In this document: positions 5,614 through 15,191 of the stretch, piece by piece | Numbering within the stretch: the first letter of the stretch is position 1 | Layout: each line of letters starts with the position of its first letter | Origin: Streptomyces roseochromogenus subsp. oscitans DS 12.976 | GTDB taxonomy: Bacteria; Actinomycetota; Actinomycetes; Streptomycetales; Streptomycetaceae | NCBI RefSeq assembly: GCF_000497445.1 | Contig: NZ_CM002285.1 | Location: 4,914,560 to 4,948,388, forward strand | Length of the DNA stretch: 33,829 nt | Direction: 5' to 3' | Translations under genes and position numbers: made by a program | The notes under the pieces: generated by a model | Databases searched by the model: none | What the model was told of the DNA's origin: nothing | The model's input: the letters and a program-made list of their open reading frames with translations, nothing else

Positions 5614-5796
5614 GCCCCGAGCAGACCGCGAGCAATCCCCGCACGGCCCGCTCGCCCTCCCCCCGCACGGCCGCCCGCCCGATCCCTGAACGGCCCACGG
5701 CCGATGCCTGCGCCGCCCGCGACCTACCCCCCGGCCGCAGTGGACCACCGCATACGGGAGAATCGAGGCACTTGGACAGAACCACGGGGAGGAACC

Positions 5797-6696
5797 GTGT
5801 CCGGATTCGTAGAAAAGCCCGAGCCGATCCAGGTTCCGGGCCTGGTGCACCTGCACACCGGAAAGGTGCGCGAGCTGTACCAGAACGAGGCGGGCGACCT
5901 CGTGATGGTCGCCAGCGACCGTATGTCCGCCTACGACTGGGTGCTGCCCACGGAGATCCCCGACAAGGGCCGCGTCCTCACCCAGCTCTCCCTCTGGTGG
6001 TTCGACCAGCTGCGGGATCTGGTCCCGAACCACGTCATCAGCACCGAGGTCCCGGAGGGCGCCCCCGCCGACTGGGCGGGCCGCACGCTGATCTGCAGGT
6101 CCCTGAAGATGGTCCCGGTCGAGTGCGTGGCGCGCGGCTATCTCACCGGCTCGGGCCTGCTGGAGTACAACGAGTCCCGGACGGTCTGCGGCCTCGCCCT
6201 ACCCGAAGGCCTCGTCGACGGCTCGGAACTCCCCGCCCCGATCTTCACCCCGGCCACCAAGGCCGAGGTCGGCGAGCACGACGAGAACGTCTCCTACGAG
6301 GAGGTCGCCCGCCAGGTGGGCGCCGAGACCGCCGCCCAGCTGCGCCAGGCCACCCTCGCCGTGTACGCGCGCGCCCGGGGCATCGCCCGGGACCGGGGGA
6401 TCATCCTGGCCGACACCAAGTTCGAGTTCGGCTTCGACGGGGACACGCTCGTCCTCGCCGACGAGGTCCTCACCCCGGACTCCTCCCGTTTCTGGCCGGC
6501 CGACCTGTGGGAGCCGGGCCGCGCCCAGCCGTCGTACGACAAGCAGTTCGTCCGGAACTGGCTGACCTCCGCCGAGTCCGGCTGGGACAGGAAGAGCGAG
6601 CAGCCCCCGCCGGCGCTGCCGGACGAGGTCGTCGAGCAGACCCGGCAGAAGTACGTGGAGGCGTACGAGCGTCTGACGGGTCTGAGCTGGGCGTAA
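5797..6696 (+). CDS. purC: Phosphoribosylaminoimidazole-succinocarboxamide synthase (SAICAR synthetase)
   Basis: PurC joins CAIR and aspartate with ATP to make SAICAR. I place the start at GTG 5797, which follows a strong GGGGAGGA ribosome site and gives a 299-residue protein beginning VSGFVEKPEPIQVPGLVHLHTGKVREL. An in-frame ATG at 5704 would add 31 residues of non-conserved Pro/Ala-rich sequence without a ribosome site. Family blocks are present: MVASDRMSAYDWVLPTEIPDKG, CVARGYLTGSGLLEY, FTPATKAEVGEHDENVS and ILADTKFEFGFD. No clear promoter could be picked out in 5614-5796. A perfect hairpin terminator follows at once, so it is a single-gene unit. Confidence 0.96.
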   Translation: MSGFVEKPEPIQVPGLVHLHTGKVRELYQNEAGDLVMVASDRMSAYDWVLPTEIPDKGRVLTQLSLWWFDQLRDLVPNHVISTEVPEGAPADWAGRTLICRSLKMVPVECVARGYLTGSGLLEYNESRTVCGLALPEGLVDGSELPAPIFTPATKAEVGEHDENVSYEEVARQVGAETAAQLRQATLAVYARARGIARDRGIILADTKFEFGFDGDTLVLADEVLTPDSSRFWPADLWEPGRAQPSYDKQFVRNWLTSAESGWDRKSEQPPPALPDEVVEQTRQKYVEAYERLTGLSWA

Positions 6697-6701
6697 CGCA
6701 A

Positions 6702-6727
6702 AAGGCCCCCGGGGAACCGGGGGCCTT
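6702..6727. terminator. Bidirectional terminator between purC and tRNA-Gly
   Basis: An 11-bp perfect stem (6702-6712 with 6717-6727, AAGGCCCCCGG) is closed by a GGAA tetraloop. It lies between convergent purC and tRNA-Gly and would serve both. Confidence 0.9.
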
Positions 6728-6729
6728 AC

Positions 6730-6805
6730 TGGAGCGGACGACGAGGCTCGAACTCGCGACCTCAACCTTGGCAAGGTTGCGCTCTACCAACTGAGCTACG
6801 TCCGC
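6730..6805 (-). tRNA. tRNA-Gly (GCC anticodon), CCA encoded
   Basis: Read on the minus strand it folds as a standard cloverleaf. The acceptor GCGGACG pairs with CGTCCGC, the D-arm is GCTC...GAGC, the anticodon stem is CAACC/GGTTG around a loop with GCC, and the T-loop is TTCGAGC. It ends TCCA, so CCA is genomically encoded. It decodes GGC and GGU. It is identical over all 76 nt to the copy at 10684-10759. Confidence 0.97.
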
Positions 6806-6827
6806 ATTGCGCCGTGGCGCGAGAGCA

Positions 6828-6833
6828 ACTATA
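6828..6833 (-). promoter_or_regulatory. Candidate -10 of tRNA-Gly inside the end of the regulator gene
   Basis: On the minus strand TATAGT occupies 6833-6828. It overlaps the TAG stop codon of the response-regulator gene and lies about 23 nt before the tRNA 5' end. It is a near-consensus -10, but no good -35 is seen. The tRNA could also be reached by read-through from the operon upstream. Confidence 0.5.
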
Positions 6834-7443
6834 CCCAACCTCGCTCGCGAGCGAGACGCACCGCCGCATGACGGTTCTCGGCGCCGAGCTTCGTGACGGC
6901 TGACGACAGGTAGTTCCGCACGGTCCCCGGCGACAGCGCGGCCCGTTCGGCGATCTCCGTGACCGGCGCCCCGTCGCCCGCCAGCTCCAGCACCTCGGCC
7001 TCCCGCGCGGTCAGCGGGGAGTCCCCGGCGGAGATCGCGTCGGCGGCCAACTCCGGGTCGACGTAACGGTTTCCGGCGTGCACGGTACGGATGATCTCGG
7101 CGAGCCGCTGGGCGCTGACGGTCTTCGGGACGAACCCGCGCACACCGGCTGCGAGCGCCCGTTTCAGATGGCCGGGCCGCCCGTGACCGGTGACGATCAG
7201 CACCTGGCAGCCGGGCAGTTCGGCGCGCAGGGTTGTGGCGACCTTCACACCGTCGGCCCCGGGCATCTGGAGATCCAGTACGGCCACATCGGGTTCATGG
7301 GCCCGCGCCATCGCCAGCGCCTCGGGCCCGCTGGCCGCCTCGGCGACGACGAGGAGATCGTCCTCCAGTGAGAGCAGCGCGGCCAGCGCGCCCCGGATCA
7401 GATGCTCGTCGTCGGCGAGCAACAGCCGTACCGGAGTGCTCAT
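6829..7443 (-). CDS. NarL/LuxR-family two-component response regulator
   Basis: This 204-residue protein has an N-terminal receiver domain (residues 5-120): acidic pocket Asp11/Asp12, phospho-acceptor Asp57 in VLDLQMPG, Thr85 and Lys107. A LuxR-type helix-turn-helix (about 140-200) contains LTAREAEVLELAGDGAPVTEIAE and LSPGTVRNYLSSAVTKL. Its ATG overlaps the stop of the kinase gene by 4 nt (ATGA), so the pair is translationally coupled. It resembles DesR-type regulators linked to ABC exporters. It probably controls its own operon, possibly through the palindromes at 10602-10628, though that link is inferred from position only. Confidence 0.95.
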   Translation of the reverse strand: MSTPVRLLLADDEHLIRGALAALLSLEDDLLVVAEAASGPEALAMARAHEPDVAVLDLQMPGADGVKVATTLRAELPGCQVLIVTGHGRPGHLKRALAAGVRGFVPKTVSAQRLAEIIRTVHAGNRYVDPELAADAISAGDSPLTAREAEVLELAGDGAPVTEIAERAALSPGTVRNYLSSAVTKLGAENRHAAVRLARERGWV

Positions 7444-8684
7444 GATGTGACTTCACTCACTTTCTCCCTCAGCGGCACCTCGGCCACCAGCCGGAACCGG
7501 TCACCGGCGACGGCTCCCGCCTCCAGCGTCCCGGCCACGACGGCCAGCCGCTCCCGCAGCCCGGCGAGCCCGGAACCCCCACCCCCGTCGGGCGTTCCGG
7601 ACACGCCGTCGTTCTCCACCGTCAGCACCACGCGCCCCTCAAGCACCCTCAGACACAGCGCGCAGCGTCCGGCGTCCCCGTGCCGCAGCACATTGGTGGT
7701 GGCCTCGCGCACCACCCAGCCGAGCGCGGACTGCACGTCGGCGGGCAGCCCCGCGGTCTCCGCGCTGACCTCGCACGCGATCCCGGCGGCCGTCAACACG
7801 CCCTGTGCGCCGGTGAGTTCGGCCCCGAGGTCGGCCTCCCGGTAGCCGCGTACGACGGCCCGCACCTCGCGCTGGGAGTCCTGTGCGATGCGCTGCACCT
7901 CGATCATCTGCTCCACGGCCTCCGGCCGCCCGCGCCGGGCCAGTTGCACCGCCAGCTCGCTCTTGAGCGAGATCACGGACAGGTTCCGGCCCAGCACGTC
8001 GTGCAGATCCCGGCCGAACCGCAGCCGCTCCTCGGCGACGGCGAGCCGGGCCTCCACCTCACGGGCCCGCTCCGCCTCCCACAGCACGGAGAGCGTCCAG
8101 GCGCCGCAGCGGCCCGCGAGCAGCGCGAAGACCGCCTGGAAGACGGCCATCGCCGCGGTCGCCACCAGGCCGGGGGCGTCGTGATCGGCGAGCCCGACGG
8201 CCGCCGTGAGCAGCACCGTGAACCCCGCCGACCGGCGCAGGAACACCCCGACCGGCGCCGTGAGCCCGTACAGCAGCCCGAACGGCAGCACGACGCCGCC
8301 GATCGTGAACCGGACCGCCATCGGAGTGGCCGCGTCCGTCGCGGCGAGCGCCACGATCAGCCCCAGCGCGAGCCCCAGCAGGACGGCCGGTGCGCGATGC
8401 GTGCCGGCCGGCAGCTCGGCGCGTCCGAGGTAGTGGTCGAGCACGGTCCTGGTGCGACGGTTCGCGAGGACACCCTGAAGGATCCCGACGAGGACGAGGA
8501 CGGCGCCCAGGACCAGCGCCACGGGCCGGTGGGCGATCCCGCCGGCCAGCGGCAGCAGCAGCCAGCAGCCCAGGATGAACCAGATCGAGCAGTGCCAGGT
8601 GAGGACGCTGGTCAGCTCGACCCGCTCGGCCTTGCTGCGCTCCCCCCAGTGCCGCTGCTGCCACCGCCGTATCCGGCCCACCAT
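7440..8684 (-). CDS. DesK-like sensor histidine kinase
   Basis: A 414-residue membrane kinase. Residues about 28-196 hold five or six hydrophobic helices with little extracytoplasmic sequence, so it is probably an intramembrane-sensing type. A short coiled region (200-222) leads to the HisKA_3 dimerisation helix with phospho-acceptor His228 in RDLHDVLGRNLSVISLK. The HATPase domain has Glu327/Asn331 in REATTNVLRH, NDG (358-360) and the glycine-rich GSGLAGLRERL. The start is ATG 8684 after GGGGGAA, 24 nt from the upstream permease stop. It phosphorylates the regulator encoded next to it. The stimulus is unknown; the ABC exporter in the same operon suggests membrane-active compounds. Confidence 0.95.
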   Translation of the reverse strand: MVGRIRRWQQRHWGERSKAERVELTSVLTWHCSIWFILGCWLLLPLAGGIAHRPVALVLGAVLVLVGILQGVLANRRTRTVLDHYLGRAELPAGTHRAPAVLLGLALGLIVALAATDAATPMAVRFTIGGVVLPFGLLYGLTAPVGVFLRRSAGFTVLLTAAVGLADHDAPGLVATAAMAVFQAVFALLAGRCGAWTLSVLWEAERAREVEARLAVAEERLRFGRDLHDVLGRNLSVISLKSELAVQLARRGRPEAVEQMIEVQRIAQDSQREVRAVVRGYREADLGAELTGAQGVLTAAGIACEVSAETAGLPADVQSALGWVVREATTNVLRHGDAGRCALCLRVLEGRVVLTVENDGVSGTPDGGGGSGLAGLRERLAVVAGTLEAGAVAGDRFRLVAEVPLREKVSEVTS

Positions 8685-8708
8685 GTGTTCCCCCGTACCT
8701 CACGTACC

Positions 8709-9542
8709 TCAGCGCCGAGGCTCCCAGCGGAACCACCGTCGTACAGCAAACACGGCCAGGATCGTCCAGGCCAACGCGGTCGCCAGGGCGCCCAGTGCCT
8801 CGTACCCGCTCAACTGGCCGGTCCAGCCGCCGCGGACGAGCCGGATCGCCGGGGACAGCGGGAGCAGTTCGCAGACGGCGGCCAGCTTGTCCGGCATGAC
8901 CTCCGTGGGGAACGTGATCCCGGAGCCGAGCATCGACAGGAACATCAGCGGCAGCGCGGTCACCTGGGCGCTCTCCACGGTCCGGGTGAAGGACGCGGTG
9001 AGCGCGGCGAGCGCGGCACTGACCAGGTAACCGGCCACCAGCCCGGGCAGGATCAGATACGGCGCCCTGGGCGCGCCGAGGTGCAGCAGGGCCGCGCACC
9101 CGACGCACAGCACCAGCGCCTGGGCCAGTCCGATGACGAGCGCGGGCAGCGCGGTGCCGGTGAGGATCTCCGCGTCGGACAGCTCACCGGTGCGCAGCCG
9201 CTTGAGGACGAGTTCCTCGCGGCGGGCGACGAAGGCGTTGACCAGCGAGGTGTACACGGCGAAGAGGAAGGAGAACCCGATCGCGGCCGTCAGCAGGGTG
9301 GTGCCGAGCGTCAGCCCCTGCTTCTTCAGATCCAGCTGGTCCATGGCCGGCCGCACGCTGAACGGCAGCAGGAGCGGCACGGCCAGCGCGGTGAGGACGA
9401 CTCCGCGGTTGCGGCCGAGCAGGGTGAGTTCGGCCCGCCCCAGCGCCCACAGCCGCCGGCCCGCCGACGTCCCCCCGCCGCGCTCAGCCCCCCGAACCCC
9501 GCTCACCGCACGGCTCTGCGCCCCCGCTCCGGCCCCGCTCAT
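8709..9542 (-). CDS. ABC-2 type transporter permease
   Basis: A 277-residue polytopic protein with about six membrane spans after a 35-residue Gly/Ala/Arg-rich cytoplasmic tail. It has the usual ABC-2 layout: an early hydrophobic segment near 48-64, paired helices at 77-100 and 130-185, a TASFTRTVESAQ loop, the long helix with PLMFLSMLGSGITFP, and a last helix near 250-268. The start overlaps the ATPase stop by 4 nt, indicating coupled translation and a shared complex. Substrate not predictable. Confidence 0.92.
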   Translation of the reverse strand: MSGAGAGAQSRAVSGVRGAERGGGTSAGRRLWALGRAELTLLGRNRGVVLTALAVPLLLPFSVRPAMDQLDLKKQGLTLGTTLLTAAIGFSFLFAVYTSLVNAFVARREELVLKRLRTGELSDAEILTGTALPALVIGLAQALVLCVGCAALLHLGAPRAPYLILPGLVAGYLVSAALAALTASFTRTVESAQVTALPLMFLSMLGSGITFPTEVMPDKLAAVCELLPLSPAIRLVRGGWTGQLSGYEALGALATALAWTILAVFAVRRWFRWEPRR

Positions 9543-10558
9543 GCCACCACCCCCGGTGCCTGTGCCTGTTCGCGTGCGATTCCCAGGAACGCCTCCTCCA
9601 GGGAGGCGGAGCGCACGTCCAGGCCGCGCAGTTCGACTCCGGTCCGCTCGGCCCAGGTCAGTACGCCGGTCGCGGTCCGCTGCAGCTGGTTCGTCCGCAG
9701 TCGTACGACTCTGCCGTCGCTCTCGTGGCCGCAGGCACCGAGGTCGGCCAGCGGCGGAAGGTCGCCGAGGAAGTAGCCGTCGGGCAGTTCGAAGGACATC
9801 CGGGACGGCCGGCCCGCGGTGACCTCGGCCGGGGTCCCGGAGGCGGCGATGCGGCCCTCGTGCAGGATGGCGAGCCGGTCGGCGAGACCCTCGGCCTCCT
9901 CGAGACAGTGCGTGGTGAGCAGCACGGTCGTGCCCGCGTCGCGCAGGGCGCGCACCAACTCCCAGGTGTCCCGGCGGCCTTCCGCGTCGAGCCCGGTCGT
10001 CGGCTCGTCGAGGAAGAGCACCTCGGGGTCGCCGAGCAGCGCGAGCGCCAGATCGAGCCGGCGCCGCTCGCCGCCGGACAGCTGCTTGACCCGCACCTCG
10101 TGCCGGTCCGCGAGCCCGACCAGCTCCAGTACGTCCGCCGTCTTACGGCTCGTTCGCCTCCGGGGCGCTCCAGCCGGTGTCGCGGCGCGCCCCTTCGGCT
10201 CACTCGCGACGGGCCGGGCCGCGCTGGTGCATCCGGCCCACATCCGGGCGGTCTCGGCGACGGTCAGCTCGGCCGGGAAGCCGCCCTCCTGGAGCATCAC
10301 TCCGGTGCGGGGCCGTACGGCGGCCCGCTCGCGGTAGGGGTCGTGGCCGAGGATCCGGATCCGGCCCCCGGCGGGTGCGGCGAGGCCTTCCAGCAGTTCG
10401 ACCGTCGACGTCTTGCCCGCTCCGTTCGTGCCGAGCAGGGCGAAGATCTCCCCGCGGGCCACCGAGAAGCTGATTCCGCGTACGGCCTCGAACCCGCCCC
10501 CGTAGACACGCCTGAGATCGGTGACCTCAATCACGTCTTCGTGTTCGTCGTAGTGCAT
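9539..10558 (-). CDS. ABC transporter ATP-binding protein
   Basis: First gene of the four-gene minus-strand operon; 339 residues. Walker A is GTNGAGKTS (43-51), Q-loop Gln90, signature LSGGE (160-164), Walker B LFLDE (181-185), and the switch histidine is His217 in TTHCLEEAE. The C-terminal 80 residues are the regulatory extension typical of DrrA/CcmA-like exporters. Residues about 111-141 (TSAARPVASEPKG and onward) form an Arg/Ala/Pro-rich insertion between the Q-loop helix and the signature region, where relatives are normally continuous. Its DNA (10140-10215) contains the 7-bp inverted repeat GGGGCGC...GCGCCCC. It energises the permease encoded next. Confidence 0.95.
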   Translation of the reverse strand: MHYDEHEDVIEVTDLRRVYGGGFEAVRGISFSVARGEIFALLGTNGAGKTSTVELLEGLAAPAGGRIRILGHDPYRERAAVRPRTGVMLQEGGFPAELTVAETARMWAGCTSAARPVASEPKGRAATPAGAPRRRTSRKTADVLELVGLADRHEVRVKQLSGGERRRLDLALALLGDPEVLFLDEPTTGLDAEGRRDTWELVRALRDAGTTVLLTTHCLEEAEGLADRLAILHEGRIAASGTPAEVTAGRPSRMSFELPDGYFLGDLPPLADLGACGHESDGRVVRLRTNQLQRTATGVLTWAERTGVELRGLDVRSASLEEAFLGIAREQAQAPGVVA

Positions 10559-10601
10559 GAACCAAGCGTCCCGGCGGCCGGAGCGGGTCGGCAGTGCGCG
10601 A

Positions 10602-10628
10602 TGTCATCGCTCGGCATGACAAATGTCA
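10602..10628. promoter_or_regulatory. Candidate operator upstream of the ABC/two-component operon
   Basis: TGTCAT (10602-10607) and ATGACA (10616-10621) form an inverted repeat with an 8-bp centre. The second half also starts a perfect palindrome TGACA-AA-TGTCA (10617-10628). The site lies 44-70 bp upstream of the ATG at 10558, where a NarL-type regulator would be expected to bind. Binding by the operon's own regulator is inference. Confidence 0.5.
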
Positions 10629-10653
10629 GAGAAGGGGAGGGCACACGAAAAGA

Positions 10654-10682
10654 CCCCGGTCCACTGGACCGGGGCCTTTTTC
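10654..10682. terminator. Terminator of the second tRNA-Gly
   Basis: CCCCGGTCC (10654-10662) pairs with GGACCGGGG (10666-10674) around ACT. TCTTTTC follows on the minus strand and CCTTTTTT on the plus strand. It ends tRNA-Gly transcription before the operon promoter region. Confidence 0.88.
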
Positions 10683-10683
10683 A

Positions 10684-10759
10684 TGGAGCGGACGACGAGG
10701 CTCGAACTCGCGACCTCAACCTTGGCAAGGTTGCGCTCTACCAACTGAGCTACGTCCGC
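10684..10759 (-). tRNA. tRNA-Gly (GCC anticodon), second identical copy, CCA encoded
   Basis: All 76 nt are identical to 6730-6805, including the encoded CCA, while the flanks differ. A -10-like TAGGCT lies on the minus strand at 10804-10799, about 40 nt before the 5' end. It could also be co-transcribed with the tRNA-Gly-like gene at 10839. Confidence 0.97.
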
Positions 10760-10838
10760 ACTGCTCCCGACCGGCTCCCACCGATCGGTGCGAGCACCAG
10801 CCTACCTGATCCACAACAGTGGTTCTGACCGGTGCCAG

Positions 10839-10910
10839 AGCGGGTGACAGGAATTGCACACTGCGCCTTCCCCCTGGAAGGGGGTTGTTCTGCTACTAAA
10901 CTACACCCGC
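10839..10910 (-). tRNA. Atypical tRNA-Gly (UCC anticodon): special-purpose tRNA or decaying copy
   Basis: On the minus strand the acceptor arm GCGGGTG/CACCCGC (7 bp) and D-stem GTTT/GAAC are intact. The anticodon loop is CTTCCAG (UCC), with four C-G pairs and an A/A at 27-43. The T-arm is abnormal. The loop reads TGCAATT instead of TTCRANN, and only G53-C61 pairs in the normal register (a one-base shift gives 4 bp). Position 18 in the D-loop is A and position 55 is G, so the usual G18-psi55 contact is missing, while G19 and C56 are kept. CCA is not encoded. A promoter-like TTGGAC-N19-TAGAGT lies upstream. Non-ribosomal glycine tRNAs of Staphylococcus also have TGCA-type T-loops. A pseudogene remains possible. 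Confidence 0.7.
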
Positions 10911-10948
10911 GTGTTTCCGCAGGTCATCTGCCCTGCGGCTCGTCACAG

Positions 10949-10979
10949 ACTCTAGCCCATGGACGGGGCTGAAGTCCAA
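10949..10979 (-). promoter_or_regulatory. Candidate promoter of the atypical tRNA-Gly
   Basis: On the minus strand TTGGAC (10979-10974), a 19-bp spacer and TAGAGT (10954-10949) precede the tRNA-like gene by about 39 nt. A 7-bp inverted repeat, CCGCAGG/CCTGCGG (10917-10923 and 10932-10938), sits between promoter and tRNA. Confidence 0.5.
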
Positions 10980-10991
10980 GTCGCATGGGGC

Positions 10992-11138
10992 GGGGGCGAA
11001 TCGTGGCGTCTCGCCCCCTGGGGATGTTCCGCTGGCCAAGTGCCCGAGCGGCGCCCGGGCTTGCGTCCCCGCGTGCGCAGACGCGTCCTGTCTCCCGAGG
11101 GGTACTGAGGCAGTTGGCCATGCCCCGCAGCCGGGCAT
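10992..11138. other. Gene-free, hairpin-rich stretch between tRNA-Gly(UCC)-like and lsr2
   Basis: The 437-bp gap 10911-11347 has no credible gene. It contains GGGGGCGA/TCGCCCCC (10992-10999 with 11011-11018), TGGCCAA/TTGGCCA 74 nt apart (11033-11039 with 11114-11120) enclosing TGCCCGAGCGGC, and ATGCCC/GGGCAT (11120-11125 with 11133-11138). The nested arrangement suggests a structured RNA on one strand or decayed tRNA-like sequence. No known RNA family was recognised. Confidence 0.35.
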
Positions 11139-11301
11139 CGCGGCCAGGCCGGTCTGGTGCGGTCACCGGCGTTCATCACCAGGTCCACCGGCTCAAGGCT
11201 GGGCTTGTGCCTCCGCGACTCGCGTACCAGCGGGTCCAGAGTGGCGCGAAGGGCCGTCTGCTGTCTGGAGATTCGCCGACTCGGCCGCAGCCGGGTGAAC
11301 G

Positions 11302-11332
11302 GCTCCCAGGGTCGCTGACGGACCCCGGGAGC
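11302..11332 (-). terminator. Terminator of the Lsr2-family gene
   Basis: GCTCCC-A-GGGTC (11302-11313) pairs with GACCC-C-GGGAGC (11321-11332) with one A/C mismatch and a 7-nt loop. It begins 16 nt after the lsr2 stop codon on the minus strand. Confidence 0.75.
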
Positions 11333-11347
11333 TGCCCCTTCGCGGGC

Positions 11348-11665
11348 TTACCGCGCGGCGCTGAAGGCCTCGTAGACCTTCTTGGGGATGCGGCCGCGGG
11401 CCGGGACGTCCATCTTGTTGGCCTGCGCCCAGGCGCGGACGGCCGCCGGGTCGGGGGCGACCTCGGTCTGCTTGTACGCCTTGCCGGACCGCGACCGCTT
11501 GCGGCCGGCCTCGACGTAGGGCGCGAGCGCCTTGCGCAGTTTCTTGGCGTTGGTTTCGTTCAGGTCGATCTCGTACGACTTGCCGTCGAGTCCGAAGGCG
11601 ATCGTTTCCGCCGCTTCCGAGCCGTCGATGTCGTCAAAGAGAGTGACCACGACCTTTTGCGCCAC
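11348..11665 (-). CDS. lsrL: Lsr2-family nucleoid-associated protein (LsrL-type paralogue)
   Basis: A 105-residue protein from GTG 11665 (the sequence is CAC on the plus strand, so not ATG), with GAAGGGA about 10 nt upstream. Residues 1-55 form the Lsr2 oligomerisation domain (MAQKVVVTLFDDIDGSEA, TIAFGLDGKSYEIDL). Residues 70-105 form the DNA-binding domain ending in RGR (90-92, in VPARGRIPKKV), the AT-hook-like core that enters the minor groove of AT-rich DNA. Lsr2 proteins bridge and silence AT-rich, often acquired, DNA. Streptomyces encodes two; the one beside purSQL is, as I recall, LsrL, the less studied paralogue. The paralogue assignment rests on gene order. Its own upstream region is unusually AT-rich. 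Confidence 0.93.
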   Translation of the reverse strand: MAQKVVVTLFDDIDGSEAAETIAFGLDGKSYEIDLNETNAKKLRKALAPYVEAGRKRSRSGKAYKQTEVAPDPAAVRAWAQANKMDVPARGRIPKKVYEAFSAAR

Positions 11666-11986
11666 GAATATCGGTCCCTTCGTGCGGCACGTCGATACAG
11701 CTCACGGCGATGACGTGCCGAGTATCAGCTATTGCCAATTCATTTGTACAGTGCCCGGCAATGCAAAGTGAAGCCCGACTAAATCCGCCCGCGTGTCCGA
11801 ACACAATAGGTGGACGGGGCGGACCGTCGAACTTTCCCAGAACTTTTCATGGCGCTACGGCTTCGACACCTGATCGTGATGCGCCTCACGTAGTTTCCTC
11901 CAACTCTACTCGCGTAGAAATTTTGTGCGGGTAGTCTGAAACCCACCTGCAGGAACCTGCTCAGCACCACACCACCGGGAGTGCCC
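11666..11986. promoter_or_regulatory. AT-rich divergent promoter region of lsr2 and purSQL
   Basis: This 321-bp gap is visibly more AT-rich than its surroundings, for example 11725-11785 and 11911-11940. Toward purS, TAGTCT (11932-11937) is a plausible -10 and would give a leader of about 45 nt; the -35 is unclear. CTAC-TCGC-GTAG (11906-11917) is a small palindrome just upstream. Toward lsr2, a GATACT-like -10 can be seen on the minus strand, but weakly. No gene is seen within it. Confidence 0.45.
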
Positions 11987-12259
11987 GTGGCACGCGTCGT
12001 AGTCGACGTCATGCTCAAGCCGGAGATCCTCGACCCCCAGGGCCAGGCGGTCCAGCGTGCGCTGCCGCGCCTGGGTTTCGACGGGATCTCCGACGTACGT
12101 CAGGGAAAGCGTTTCGAACTTCAAGTTGACGGGCCGGTCGACGAGGCCGCGCTCGCCCGCATCCACGACCTTGCGGAATCCTTCCTCGCCAACACCGTGA
12201 TCGAGGACTTCACCGTCAGGGTGGAAGAGGTGGCGGAAGTCGCGGAGGCGGCCAAGTGA
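11987..12259 (+). CDS. purS: Phosphoribosylformylglycinamidine synthase subunit PurS
   Basis: PurS is the small scaffold subunit that joins PurQ and PurL in FGAM synthase and helps pass ammonia between them. The 90-residue product begins [19 protein letters not shown] and contains [21 protein letters not shown], both typical. I choose GTG 11987 because GGGAG (11977-11981) sits 5 nt upstream; the in-frame GTG at 11981 overlaps that ribosome site. Its TGA overlaps the purQ start by 4 nt. Confidence 0.95.
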
Positions 12260-12936
12260 CCGCACGTATTGGCGTCGTCACTTTCCCGGGCAGCCTCGAC
12301 GACCGGGACACCCAGCGCGCGATCCGTCTCGCCGGTGCCGAACCGGTCGCCCTGTGGCACAAGGACAAGGACCTCCACCAGGTCGACGCGGTCGTCCTGC
12401 CCGGCGGTTTCTCCTACGGCGACTATCTGCGCGCCGGTGCCATCTCCCGTTTCTCGCCGGTGATGGAGACCGTCATCGAGCAGGCGAAGGCCGGCCTTCC
12501 GGTGCTCGGTATCTGCAACGGCTTCCAGGTCCTCACCGAGGCCCATCTCCTCCCGGGCGCGATGCTCGGCAACGACCACCTTCACTTCATCTGCCGCGAC
12601 CAGAAGCTGCGGGTGGAGAACGCGGAGACCGCCTGGACCGGTGACTACCGTGCCGGCCAGGAGATCCACATCCCGCTGAAGAACATGGACGGCCGGTACG
12701 TCGCCGACGCTTACATGCTCGACAAGCTGGAGGCGGAGGGGCGGGTCGTCTTCAGGTACCTGGACTTCAATCCGAACGGCTCGCTCCGCGACATCGCCGG
12801 CATCACCAACGAGGCCGGCAATGTCGTAGGCCTGATGCCGCACCCGGAGCACGCCGTCGAGCCGCTCATCGGCACCGGCCGTACCGACGGCCTCCCCTTC
12901 TTCACCTCGATCCTCAAGAAGCTGGTCAACGCATGA
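12256..12936 (+). CDS. purQ: Phosphoribosylformylglycinamidine synthase subunit PurQ (glutaminase)
   Basis: PurQ hydrolyses glutamine to supply ammonia for FGAR to FGAM conversion. The 226-residue product is a class I glutamine amidotransferase. The nucleophile is Cys87 in LGICNGFQ, and His196/Glu198 in [10 protein letters not shown] complete the triad. The oxyanion strand [14 protein letters not shown] is intact. The start is GTG 12256 overlapping the purS stop (GTGA), and the end overlaps the purL start (ATGA). PurS, PurQ and PurL therefore form a tightly coupled operon making one enzyme complex. Confidence 0.97.
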
Positions 12937-15191
12937 GCCGGACGCCTCTGGACACGGTCGAGCACGCGGCCGCGACCCCCGACGTCGAGCTGCCCTGGGC
13001 CGAACTCGGTCTGAAGAAGGACGAGTACGAACGGGTGGTGGAGATCCTCGGCCGCCGCCCGACCGGCGCCGAGCTCGCCATGTACTCGGTCATGTGGTCC
13101 GAGCACTGCTCGTACAAGTCCTCCAAGGTCCATCTGCGCCAGTTCGGCGAGAAGGCGCCGCAGAGCGACGCGCTGCTGGTGGGCATCGGTGAGAACGCGG
13201 GTGTCGTCGACGTCGGCCAGGGTTACGCCGTGACCTTCAAGGTCGAGTCGCACAACCACCCCTCCTACGTCGAGCCCTACCAGGGTGCGGCCACGGGCGT
13301 GGGCGGCATCGTCCGCGACATCATCGCGATGGGCGCCCGCCCGGTCGCGGTGGTCGACCCCCTGCGCTTCGGCGCCGCCGACCACCCGGACACCAAGCGC
13401 GTCCTGCCGGGCGTGGTCGCCGGCATCGGTGGCTACGGCAACTGCCTGGGCCTGCCCAACATCGGCGGCGAGGTCGTCTTCGACTCCTGCTACCAGGGAA
13501 ACCCGCTGGTCAACGCCGGTGCCATCGGCGTGATGCGGCACGAGGACATCCACCTCGCCAAGGCTTCCGGCACGGGCAACAAGGTCATCCTGTACGGCGC
13601 CCGGACCGGCGGCGACGGCATCGGCGGCGCCTCGATCCTCGCCTCGGAGACCTTCGACGACGCGAAGCCCTCCAAGCGCCCGGCCGTCCAGGTCGGCGAC
13701 CCCTTCCAGGAGAAGCTCCTCATCGAGTGCACCCTGGAGGCCTTCCGGGAGAAGCTGGTCGTCGGCATCCAGGACCTGGGTGCGGCGGGCCTGTCCTGCG
13801 CCACGTCCGAGCTGGCCTCGAACGGCTCCGGCGGCATGCGCGTCACCCTGGACGACGTCCCTCTGCGTGACTCGACTCTCTCCCCCGAGGAGATCCTCAT
13901 GAGCGAGTCGCAGGAACGCATGTGCGCGGTGGTCGAGCCGGAGAAGGTCGACCGCTTCCTGGAGATCTGCGCCAAGTGGGACGTCATCGCCACGGTCATC
14001 GGCGAGGTCACCGACGGCGACCGCCTGGAGATCTACTGGCACGGCGGCAAGATCGTCGACGTCGACCCGCGCACGGTGGCCCATGAGGGCCCGGTCTACG
14101 AGCGTCCCTACGCCCGCCCGGACTGGCAGGACACCCTCCAGGCCGACGATGCGAACAAGCTGGAGCGCCCGGCCACCTCGGAGGATCTGCGGGACCAGGT
14201 CCTGAAGCTGGTGGCCTCCCCCAACCAGGCCTCCAAGAAGTGGATCACCCAGCAGTACGACCACTTCGTGCAGGGCAACACGGTGCTGGCCCAGCCCGAG
14301 GACTCGGGCATGATCCGCATCGATGAGTCGAGTGGCCTCGGCGTCGCCATCGCCACGGACGGCAACGGCCGGTACGCCAAGCTGGACCCGTACGCGGGCG
14401 CCCAGCTGGCGCTGGCGGAGGCCTACCGGAACGTGGCGACGACGGGTGCCAAGCCGCTCGCGGTGTCGGACTGCCTGAACTTCGGCTCGCCCGAAGACCC
14501 GGCGGTGATGTGGCAGTTCGTGGAGGCGGTACGTGGTCTGGCGGACGCCTGCCAGCAGCTGGGCACGCCGGTGACCGGCGGCAACGTGTCTCTGTACAAC
14601 CAGACGGGCGAGGCGGCGATCCACCCGACGCCGGTGGTCGCGGTCCTGGGCGTCATCGACGACGTGGCCCGCCGCACACCGGTCGCCTTCCAGGAGGAGG
14701 GGCAGCTGATCTACCTCCTCGGCGACACCCGCGAGGAGTTCGGCGGCTCGGCCTGGTCCCAGGTGGTCCACGACCACCTCGGCGGCCTGCCTCCGCGGGT
14801 CGACCTGGAGCGCGAGCGGCTACTGGCCGAGATCCTGATCTCCGCCTCCCGCGACGGCATGATCGACTCCGCGCACGACCTGTCCGACGGCGGCCTGGTC
14901 CAGGCGGTCGTGGAGTCCGCGCTGCTCGGCGGCAAGGGCGCCCGGCTGGTCGTACCGGACGGGCTGGACGCGTTCACCTTCCTGTTCTCCGAGTCGGCCG
15001 GCCGCGCGATCGTCGCCGTGCCGCGCTCGGAGGAGGTCCGCTTCAACGACATGTGCGGTGCGCGGGGCCTGCCGGTCACCCGCATCGGTGTCGTCGACGG
15101 TGACGCGGTGGAGATCCAGGGCGAGTTCGCGCTCACGCTGGAGGAATTGCGGAAGGCCCACGAGGAGACCATCCCGGCGCTGCTGGCGTAG
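12933..15191 (+). CDS. purL: Phosphoribosylformylglycinamidine synthase subunit PurL (synthetase)
   Basis: The 752-residue small-type PurL performs the ATP-dependent amidation of FGAR and needs PurS and PurQ. It has the PurM-like double-domain layout: [12 protein letters not shown] (His58 region), the phosphate-binding [34 protein letters not shown], then [16 protein letters not shown], a second-half ATP-binding block [19 protein letters not shown], and the C-terminal [10 protein letters not shown]. Length and motifs are normal. ATG 12933 overlaps the purQ stop by 4 nt. A strong hairpin 16 nt after the stop ends the operon. Confidence 0.97.

Follow-up and report, generated by a model that had tools for sequence, protein, structure and literature searches.

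Non-proteinogenic tRNA-Gly species of staphylococci have a UCC anticodon and a T-loop of the UGCA type. In Staphylococcus aureus, for which they were described by Giannouli et al. (2009; cited in PMC4052509 and PMC4810233), three of the five tRNA-Gly are reported to carry weak EF-Tu elements; the non-proteinogenic ones have the weak EF-Tu pairs A49-U65 and A51-U63 and have lost the GG at positions 18-19 (PMC4052509). In Streptomyces coelicolor, FemX is reported to add one glycine, as a side chain, to the stem peptide; its absence from the precursors would be lethal (PMC4790382). Since the FemX glycine is essential there, the demand for Gly-tRNA would be large. A search of titles and abstract starts in a set of open-licence papers found none on a non-canonical tRNA-Gly of Streptomyces, and Streptomyces is absent from the consulted main text of a review of natural non-canonical tRNAs (PMC7609411). 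The window analyzed here is a stretch of 33,829 nucleotides from Streptomyces roseochromogenus subsp. oscitans DS 12.976, in which an earlier note had read a tRNA-Gly(UCC) with a non-canonical T-loop (hereafter the odd tRNA).

Structure and setting of the odd tRNA

The presence of such a gene was confirmed by RF00005, with the gene on the minus strand (Table 1). Its score was 45.6 bits (E 8.9e-07; cut-off 29) compared to 62-70 bits for the other six tRNAs of the window, and ARAGORN left it unreported. The acceptor stem, D-stem, and UCC anticodon with U33 are intact, and A18, G55, and the T-loop had been read correctly. However, the statement that the T-stem barely pairs was wrong, as the register used was off by one. 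Infernal aligned GCAG, a bulged U, and G with CCUGU, giving the pairs G49-U65, C50-G64, A51-U63, and G52-C62, then the bulged U, then G53-C61. In the 35 distinct family-wide sequences, 99.4% of the T-stem cells pair in this bulged register compared to 40.0% without the bulge. The bulged base is U in 34 of the 36 family sequences and C in the other two. Minimum-free-energy folding of the bare sequences yielded the bulged cloverleaf for one relative, L182, but another structure for the window copy and the two other relatives folded.

Table 1. Features at the odd tRNA locus, in window coordinates
Feature	Position	Strand	Details	Basis
Non-canonical tRNA-Gly(UCC)	10839..10910	-	A18, T-stem bulged U, T-loop UGCAAUU, U73; CCA not encoded	RF00005, conservation, compensatory changes
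Promoter-like TTGGAC-N19-TAGAGT	10949..10979	-	putative	read from sequence
Standard tRNA-Gly(GCC)	10687..10759	-	downstream of odd tRNA, same strand	
Terminator-like inverted repeat + U-run	10648..10681	-	3' of tRNA-Gly(GCC)	by eye

Some features were fixed across the family and others were not. First, the cloverleaf with its UCC anticodon, U33, U73, G1-C72, and C2-G71 was found in all 36 aligned odd sequences, and U33, U34, C35, C36, and A37 were unchanged in every one. Second, all 35 distinct sequences have A51-U63, and the pair at 49-65 is G-U in 30 of the 35 and A-U in the other five. Third, positions 18 and 55 changed jointly: 31 of the 36 sequences combine A18 with G55, and the remaining five combine G18 with U55. 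A single switch suffices on the tree, so this is one event and not repeated covariation. A regular expression run over the fetched loci recovered 58 distinct odd tRNAs, 53 with A18/G55 and 5 with G18/U55. The claim that the standard elbow contact is lost holds in part: A18 and G55 do replace G18 and U55, but G19, C56, U54, and A58 are still present. The unbulged 5-bp T-stem, U55, and G18 that together mark a canonical elongator are not what the odd tRNA shows.

The same genome has standard tRNA-Gly for GCC, CCC, and UCC, with G51-C63 and UUCG-type T-loops (UCC, L280; CCC, L002; GCC, window 6733-6805). The normal tRNA-Gly(UCC), for which the earlier note had proposed to look, lies at G000:C1:6458336-6458406. 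The odd gene is therefore unneeded for decoding.

The promoter-like sequence said to precede the odd tRNA was also found. A TAGAGT box lies within the 80 nt before the gene in 42 of 51 distinct genus loci and in 21 of 32 named loci; with the looser pattern TA[GAC][ACT][GA]T, the counts are 51 of 51 and 31 of 32, respectively. In all 51 distinct genus loci, the last odd copy is followed after 40-97 nt by a tRNA-Gly(GCC) gene. Among the named loci, the script missed this gene in 3 of 32, each of which has a tRNA match at that place. The odd tRNA and tRNA-Gly(GCC) are probably co-transcribed. Two or three tandem copies of the odd tRNA occur in 6 of the 51 distinct loci, and L191 has four. In the window at 5704-15191, two tRNA-Gly(GCC) genes and the odd tRNA-Gly lie amid purC, purS, purQ, and purL. 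The purine pathway consumes glycine, and the location of the odd tRNA-Gly among purine genes is probably a coincidence.

Conservation and distribution in the family

Of 392 same-genus genomes, 391 gave a BLASTN match to the 72-base query, all with a best E of 6.5e-14 or lower; in the own genome, the runner-up was tRNA-Gly(CCC), with an E of 1.7e-4. No purQ match at E 1e-60 was found in the sole miss, G157, or in G417 of the wider family, so these two apparent absences are treated as assembly gaps. The odd T-arm was confirmed by reading in 53 of 53 genomes out of the 391, namely, 30 best loci and 23 weak matches, the latter from 24 genomes picked for a weak match or, in the case of G157, none. 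The odd tRNA is present in 30 of 31 purQ loci labelled Streptomyces. The exception, NRRL B-24484, has two tRNA-Gly(GCC) genes in its place, as does Kitasatospora purpeofusca.

The odd tRNA is conserved along its full length, and to the same degree as the normal tRNA beside it. In 45 single-copy loci, a set skewed by fetching toward close and very weak matches, the mean pairwise identity was 0.928 for the odd tRNA and 0.928 for the neighbouring tRNA-Gly(GCC), compared to 0.569 for the spacer, 0.668 and 0.454 for upstream bases 1-60 and 61-120, and 0.495 for the 60 bases past the GCC tRNA. The respective values in the 28 named loci were 0.939, 0.930, 0.653, 0.691, 0.492, and 0.500. The odd tRNA evolves at the pace of a normal tRNA, as would be expected of a working gene rather than a relic. 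The free drift and broken pairs expected of a pseudogene were not found among the relatives. Over the 36 family sequences (35 distinct), 99.3% of the cells pair; four unpaired cells are at the outermost anticodon-stem pair, including the A-A of the window copy, and one is in the T-stem. Two-sided changes occurred at 8 of 21 pairs and in 46 cells compared to 12.0 cells in shuffles, with the cell count reached in 0 of 500 shuffles and the pair count in 1 of 500. The number of further pair types showed no excess (13 observed, 13.7 in shuffles). The compensatory changes lie in the acceptor, D, and anticodon stems, whereas three of the five T-stem pairs are invariant, so that the T-stem speaks neither for nor against compensation. 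Conservation with compensation across Streptomyces, which the earlier note had named as support for function, was the pattern found. These sequence comparisons show a strongly constrained cloverleaf, an odd T-arm that hardly varies, and a stable linkage to tRNA-Gly(GCC). The gene looks like an additional tRNA-Gly(UCC) that is functional and vertically inherited in the Streptomyces family.

In 121 family genomes, a covariance model set the odd tRNAs, at 86 bits or more, apart from other tRNAs, which stayed below 73 bits. The odd tRNA is present in 90 of these genomes, and the 31 without it are 27 genomes of genus g14, 3 of g11, and G417. Outside the genus, nothing in 394 class-wide genomes (40 of them same-genus) scored above 73.9 bits, in a scan that covered matches at E 1e-14 or better, left 247 genomes without a match, and would let a very diverged form escape. 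Genus g14 is probably Kitasatospora, since PurQ of its genome G453 is nearest to that of a strain labelled Streptomyces sp. NRRL B-24484 (96%) and then to that of Kitasatospora purpeofusca (95%). Among nine purQ-side loci, all eight from g11 and g14 have two tRNA-Gly(GCC) genes and no odd tRNA; the comparison genome G406 has the odd tRNA. At the loci near purQ in g14 and g11 (L173-L174, L176-L181), the slot of the odd tRNA is taken by an extra tRNA-Gly(GCC) very similar to its neighbour, as if it had arisen from gene conversion or duplication. In a midpoint-rooted FemX tree of 42 rows with unsettled bootstrap, g11 and g14 group together (98/89) and adjoin g3 (91/85), which has the odd tRNA, so one loss suffices. 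A g3-like odd tRNA sequence was also found at the Streptacidiphilus pinicola locus (L208). As a separate observation, G453 has a low-scoring tRNA-like gene (L266 128-281; 42.8 bits; tRNA-Glu CUC according to ARAGORN) directly before a called tRNA-Ala.

The order of the structural changes can be tentatively read from the genera that combine them differently. Genera g2 and g5 have the T-stem bulge with normal G18 and U55, and genus g10 has A18 and G55 with the bulge displaced by one pair. The simplest order would be the bulge first and the joint 18/55 swap later; alternatively, positions 18 and 55 may have reverted in g2 and g5.

Possible roles

The shape of the odd tRNA suggests a glycine donor that serves a recipient outside the ribosome, with the cell wall as the likeliest candidate. 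The earlier note's proposal of a dedicated cell-wall glycine donor is the best single reading, and it is held here with somewhat less than even confidence: the odd tRNA would be charged with glycine, made poor for EF-Tu, and used by FemX. G1-C72, C2-G71, U73, C35, and C36 are identity elements of glycyl-tRNA synthetase, and since all are kept, this enzyme would be expected to charge the odd tRNA. Binding by EF-Tu would be weakened by three features, namely, the bulge in the T-stem, A51-U63 where standard tRNA-Gly have G51-C63, and the A18/G55 elbow, so that the charged tRNA would escape translation. It could then supply FemX with the one glycine that this enzyme adds to the peptidoglycan bridge in Streptomyces. 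Both A51-U63 and the missing G18 match features of EF-Tu avoidance reported for S. aureus (PMC4052509).

The own genome encodes a single full-length FemAB-family protein, FemX (384 aa), with a short partial match elsewhere, and the femX gene is ∼150 kb from the odd tRNA. Among PDB entries, this protein matches 6snr best (E 9.4e-31), which is FemX of S. aureus (PMC12945691), and it fell below the cut-off of every NCBIfam Fem equivalog. A FemX match was found in 39 of 40 family genomes tested, which fits the donor proposal. However, the 15 tested genomes of g14 (12) and g11 (3) lack the odd tRNA and all have FemX, and G412, a fragmented assembly, has the odd tRNA and no FemX match. This means that presence does not pair the two. 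A strict dependence of FemX on the odd tRNA is ruled out, as FemX persists in genera that no longer have the tRNA; once the g14/g11 (Kitasatospora) lineage had lost it, its role would have passed to ordinary tRNA-Gly.

Further features count against a glycine donor for FemX. First, the invariant anticodon loop exceeds what glycyl-tRNA synthetase by itself should need and fits decoding or another reader of the anticodon. Second, the strong EF-Tu pair G49-U65 is kept in 30 of 35 sequences and, unlike in S. aureus, G19 is retained. The distance of the gene from femX and the bare-sequence folds other than a cloverleaf point the same way. The invariant anticodon loop and the kept G49-U65 favor a working elongator with an unusual elbow that reads GGA/GGG at a low level or in particular conditions, its odd T-arm being tolerated or tuning EF-Tu/ribosome kinetics. 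The linkage to a normal tRNA-Gly(GCC) and the bulged tRNAs of g2 and g5 with their normal G18 and U55 agree with this. However, a standard tRNA-Gly(UCC) is also in the genome, and a bulge with A18/G55 held through most of the family is hard to square with a tolerated defect, which makes an elongator unlikely.

The donor could also serve another aminoacyl-tRNA-dependent enzyme. VanK-type enzymes, other Fem homologues, and natural-product transferases occur sporadically, whereas the odd tRNA is nearly family-wide, and the own genome holds just the one full-length FemAB protein and the short partial match. For these reasons, such a recipient is quite unlikely, even though Gly-tRNA is used by several Streptomyces enzymes, for example, DhpK and Orf11 (PMC12945691), and a second full-length Fem homologue is present in a number of family genomes. 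Improbable too is a regulatory tRNA-like RNA, acting as a sensor of glycine charging or as a source of tRNA fragments, in which the sequence and not the glycine matters; a pseudo-tRNA with regulatory and cell-wall effects has been described in Bacillus cereus (PMC3399842), but the stems of the odd tRNA vary by compensation, so the structure is kept and not the stem sequence. Retention as a site of mobile-element integration is very improbable, given the 40-97 nt spacing to tRNA-Gly(GCC) in all 51 loci, the full-length conservation, and a search for a phage, plasmid, or virus origin that gave no match, the viral contigs being scanned with one exact 22-base pattern. This reading draws on the fact that tRNA genes are common integration sites. 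Finally, the low covariance score and the ARAGORN miss would suit a decaying or chance tRNA-like sequence, but decay, which the earlier note had offered as its alternative, is ruled out together with chance by the presence in 391 of 392 genomes, constraint like that of a normal tRNA, and compensatory changes.

A second element and comparison with known systems

A second tRNA-Gly-like element lies on the minus strand of the own genome at G000:C1:3677999-3678068 (L312 8000-8069; 37.3 bits). Its T-arm, GCAGG UGCAAGG CCUGC, is nearly fixed. BLASTN at E 0.01 or better detected it in 66 of 121 same-genus genomes, four of them with partial matches only (G035, G066, G104, G115); there are up to 6 scattered matches per genome. 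The covariance model at E 1e-8 found it in 4 of 80 chosen genomes (G000, G058, G095, G396 of genus g6), a set in which other genera and genomes that BLASTN had missed were overrepresented. Its copies are followed by an inverted repeat typical of terminators, as seen by eye. Among 20 anticodon loops, CTTCCTG was found in 9, CTTCCCG in 5, TCTCCAA in 3, CCAGCCG in 2, and CCTGCCG in 1; CC is kept in 20 of 20, offset by one in three. No common neighbour emerged from 39 loci with 83 reading frames, the largest shared family, which we take to be TsaD-like, occurring in 8 of the 39. From its sequence, the element looks like an accessory, multi-copy, non-decoding glycine tRNA-like RNA.

Taken together, and well short of a firm conclusion, these results may mean that the family evolved, independently of staphylococci, a bridge glycine-donor tRNA that avoids EF-Tu through a bulge followed by an A18/G55 swap, with some Streptomyces carrying a second, multi-copy, non-decoding tRNA-like RNA with a UGCAA loop. 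The near-universality of the odd tRNA in Streptomyces, which are tractable and for the most part harmless bacteria, makes a non-canonical tRNA testable, and Kitasatospora is a natural knockout. The odd tRNA also shows that a tRNA of ordinary length can keep a bulged T-stem over a long time and use an alternative 18-55 elbow, and standard tools can overlook such genes, as ARAGORN did here.

The odd tRNA resembles the non-proteinogenic tRNA-Gly described for S. aureus in being extra beside the standard isoacceptors, in its altered position 18, in A51-U63, and in having a FemX-type protein in the same cell; in some species (5 of 35 sequences here), A49-U65 is shared as well. It differs in keeping G19, mostly G49-U65, and in the bulged U of its T-stem. 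The staphylococcal change of GG at 18-19 to UU or CU is not seen, positions 18-19 being AG in 31 of 36 sequences and GG in 5 of 36. Streptomyces also belongs to another phylum, its use of the odd tRNA by FemX is only proposed, and FemX-bearing sister genera are without the odd tRNA. Likewise, a single-base T-stem bulge is described for selC* tRNA-Cys (unpaired A at 51a) and a minor 8/4 tRNA-Sec (PMC7609411). However, those tRNAs carry different amino acids and their acceptor-T arm is 8/4, whereas the odd tRNA is 7/5 with a bulged pyrimidine and probably carries glycine. The Bacillus cereus pseudo-tRNA (tRNAOther; PMC3399842) is similar in being a tRNA-like gene outside translation with cell-wall phenotypes. 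It is described as having a Trp anticodon, being poorly charged, and flanking a genomic island, in contrast to the glycine features and core locus of the odd tRNA.
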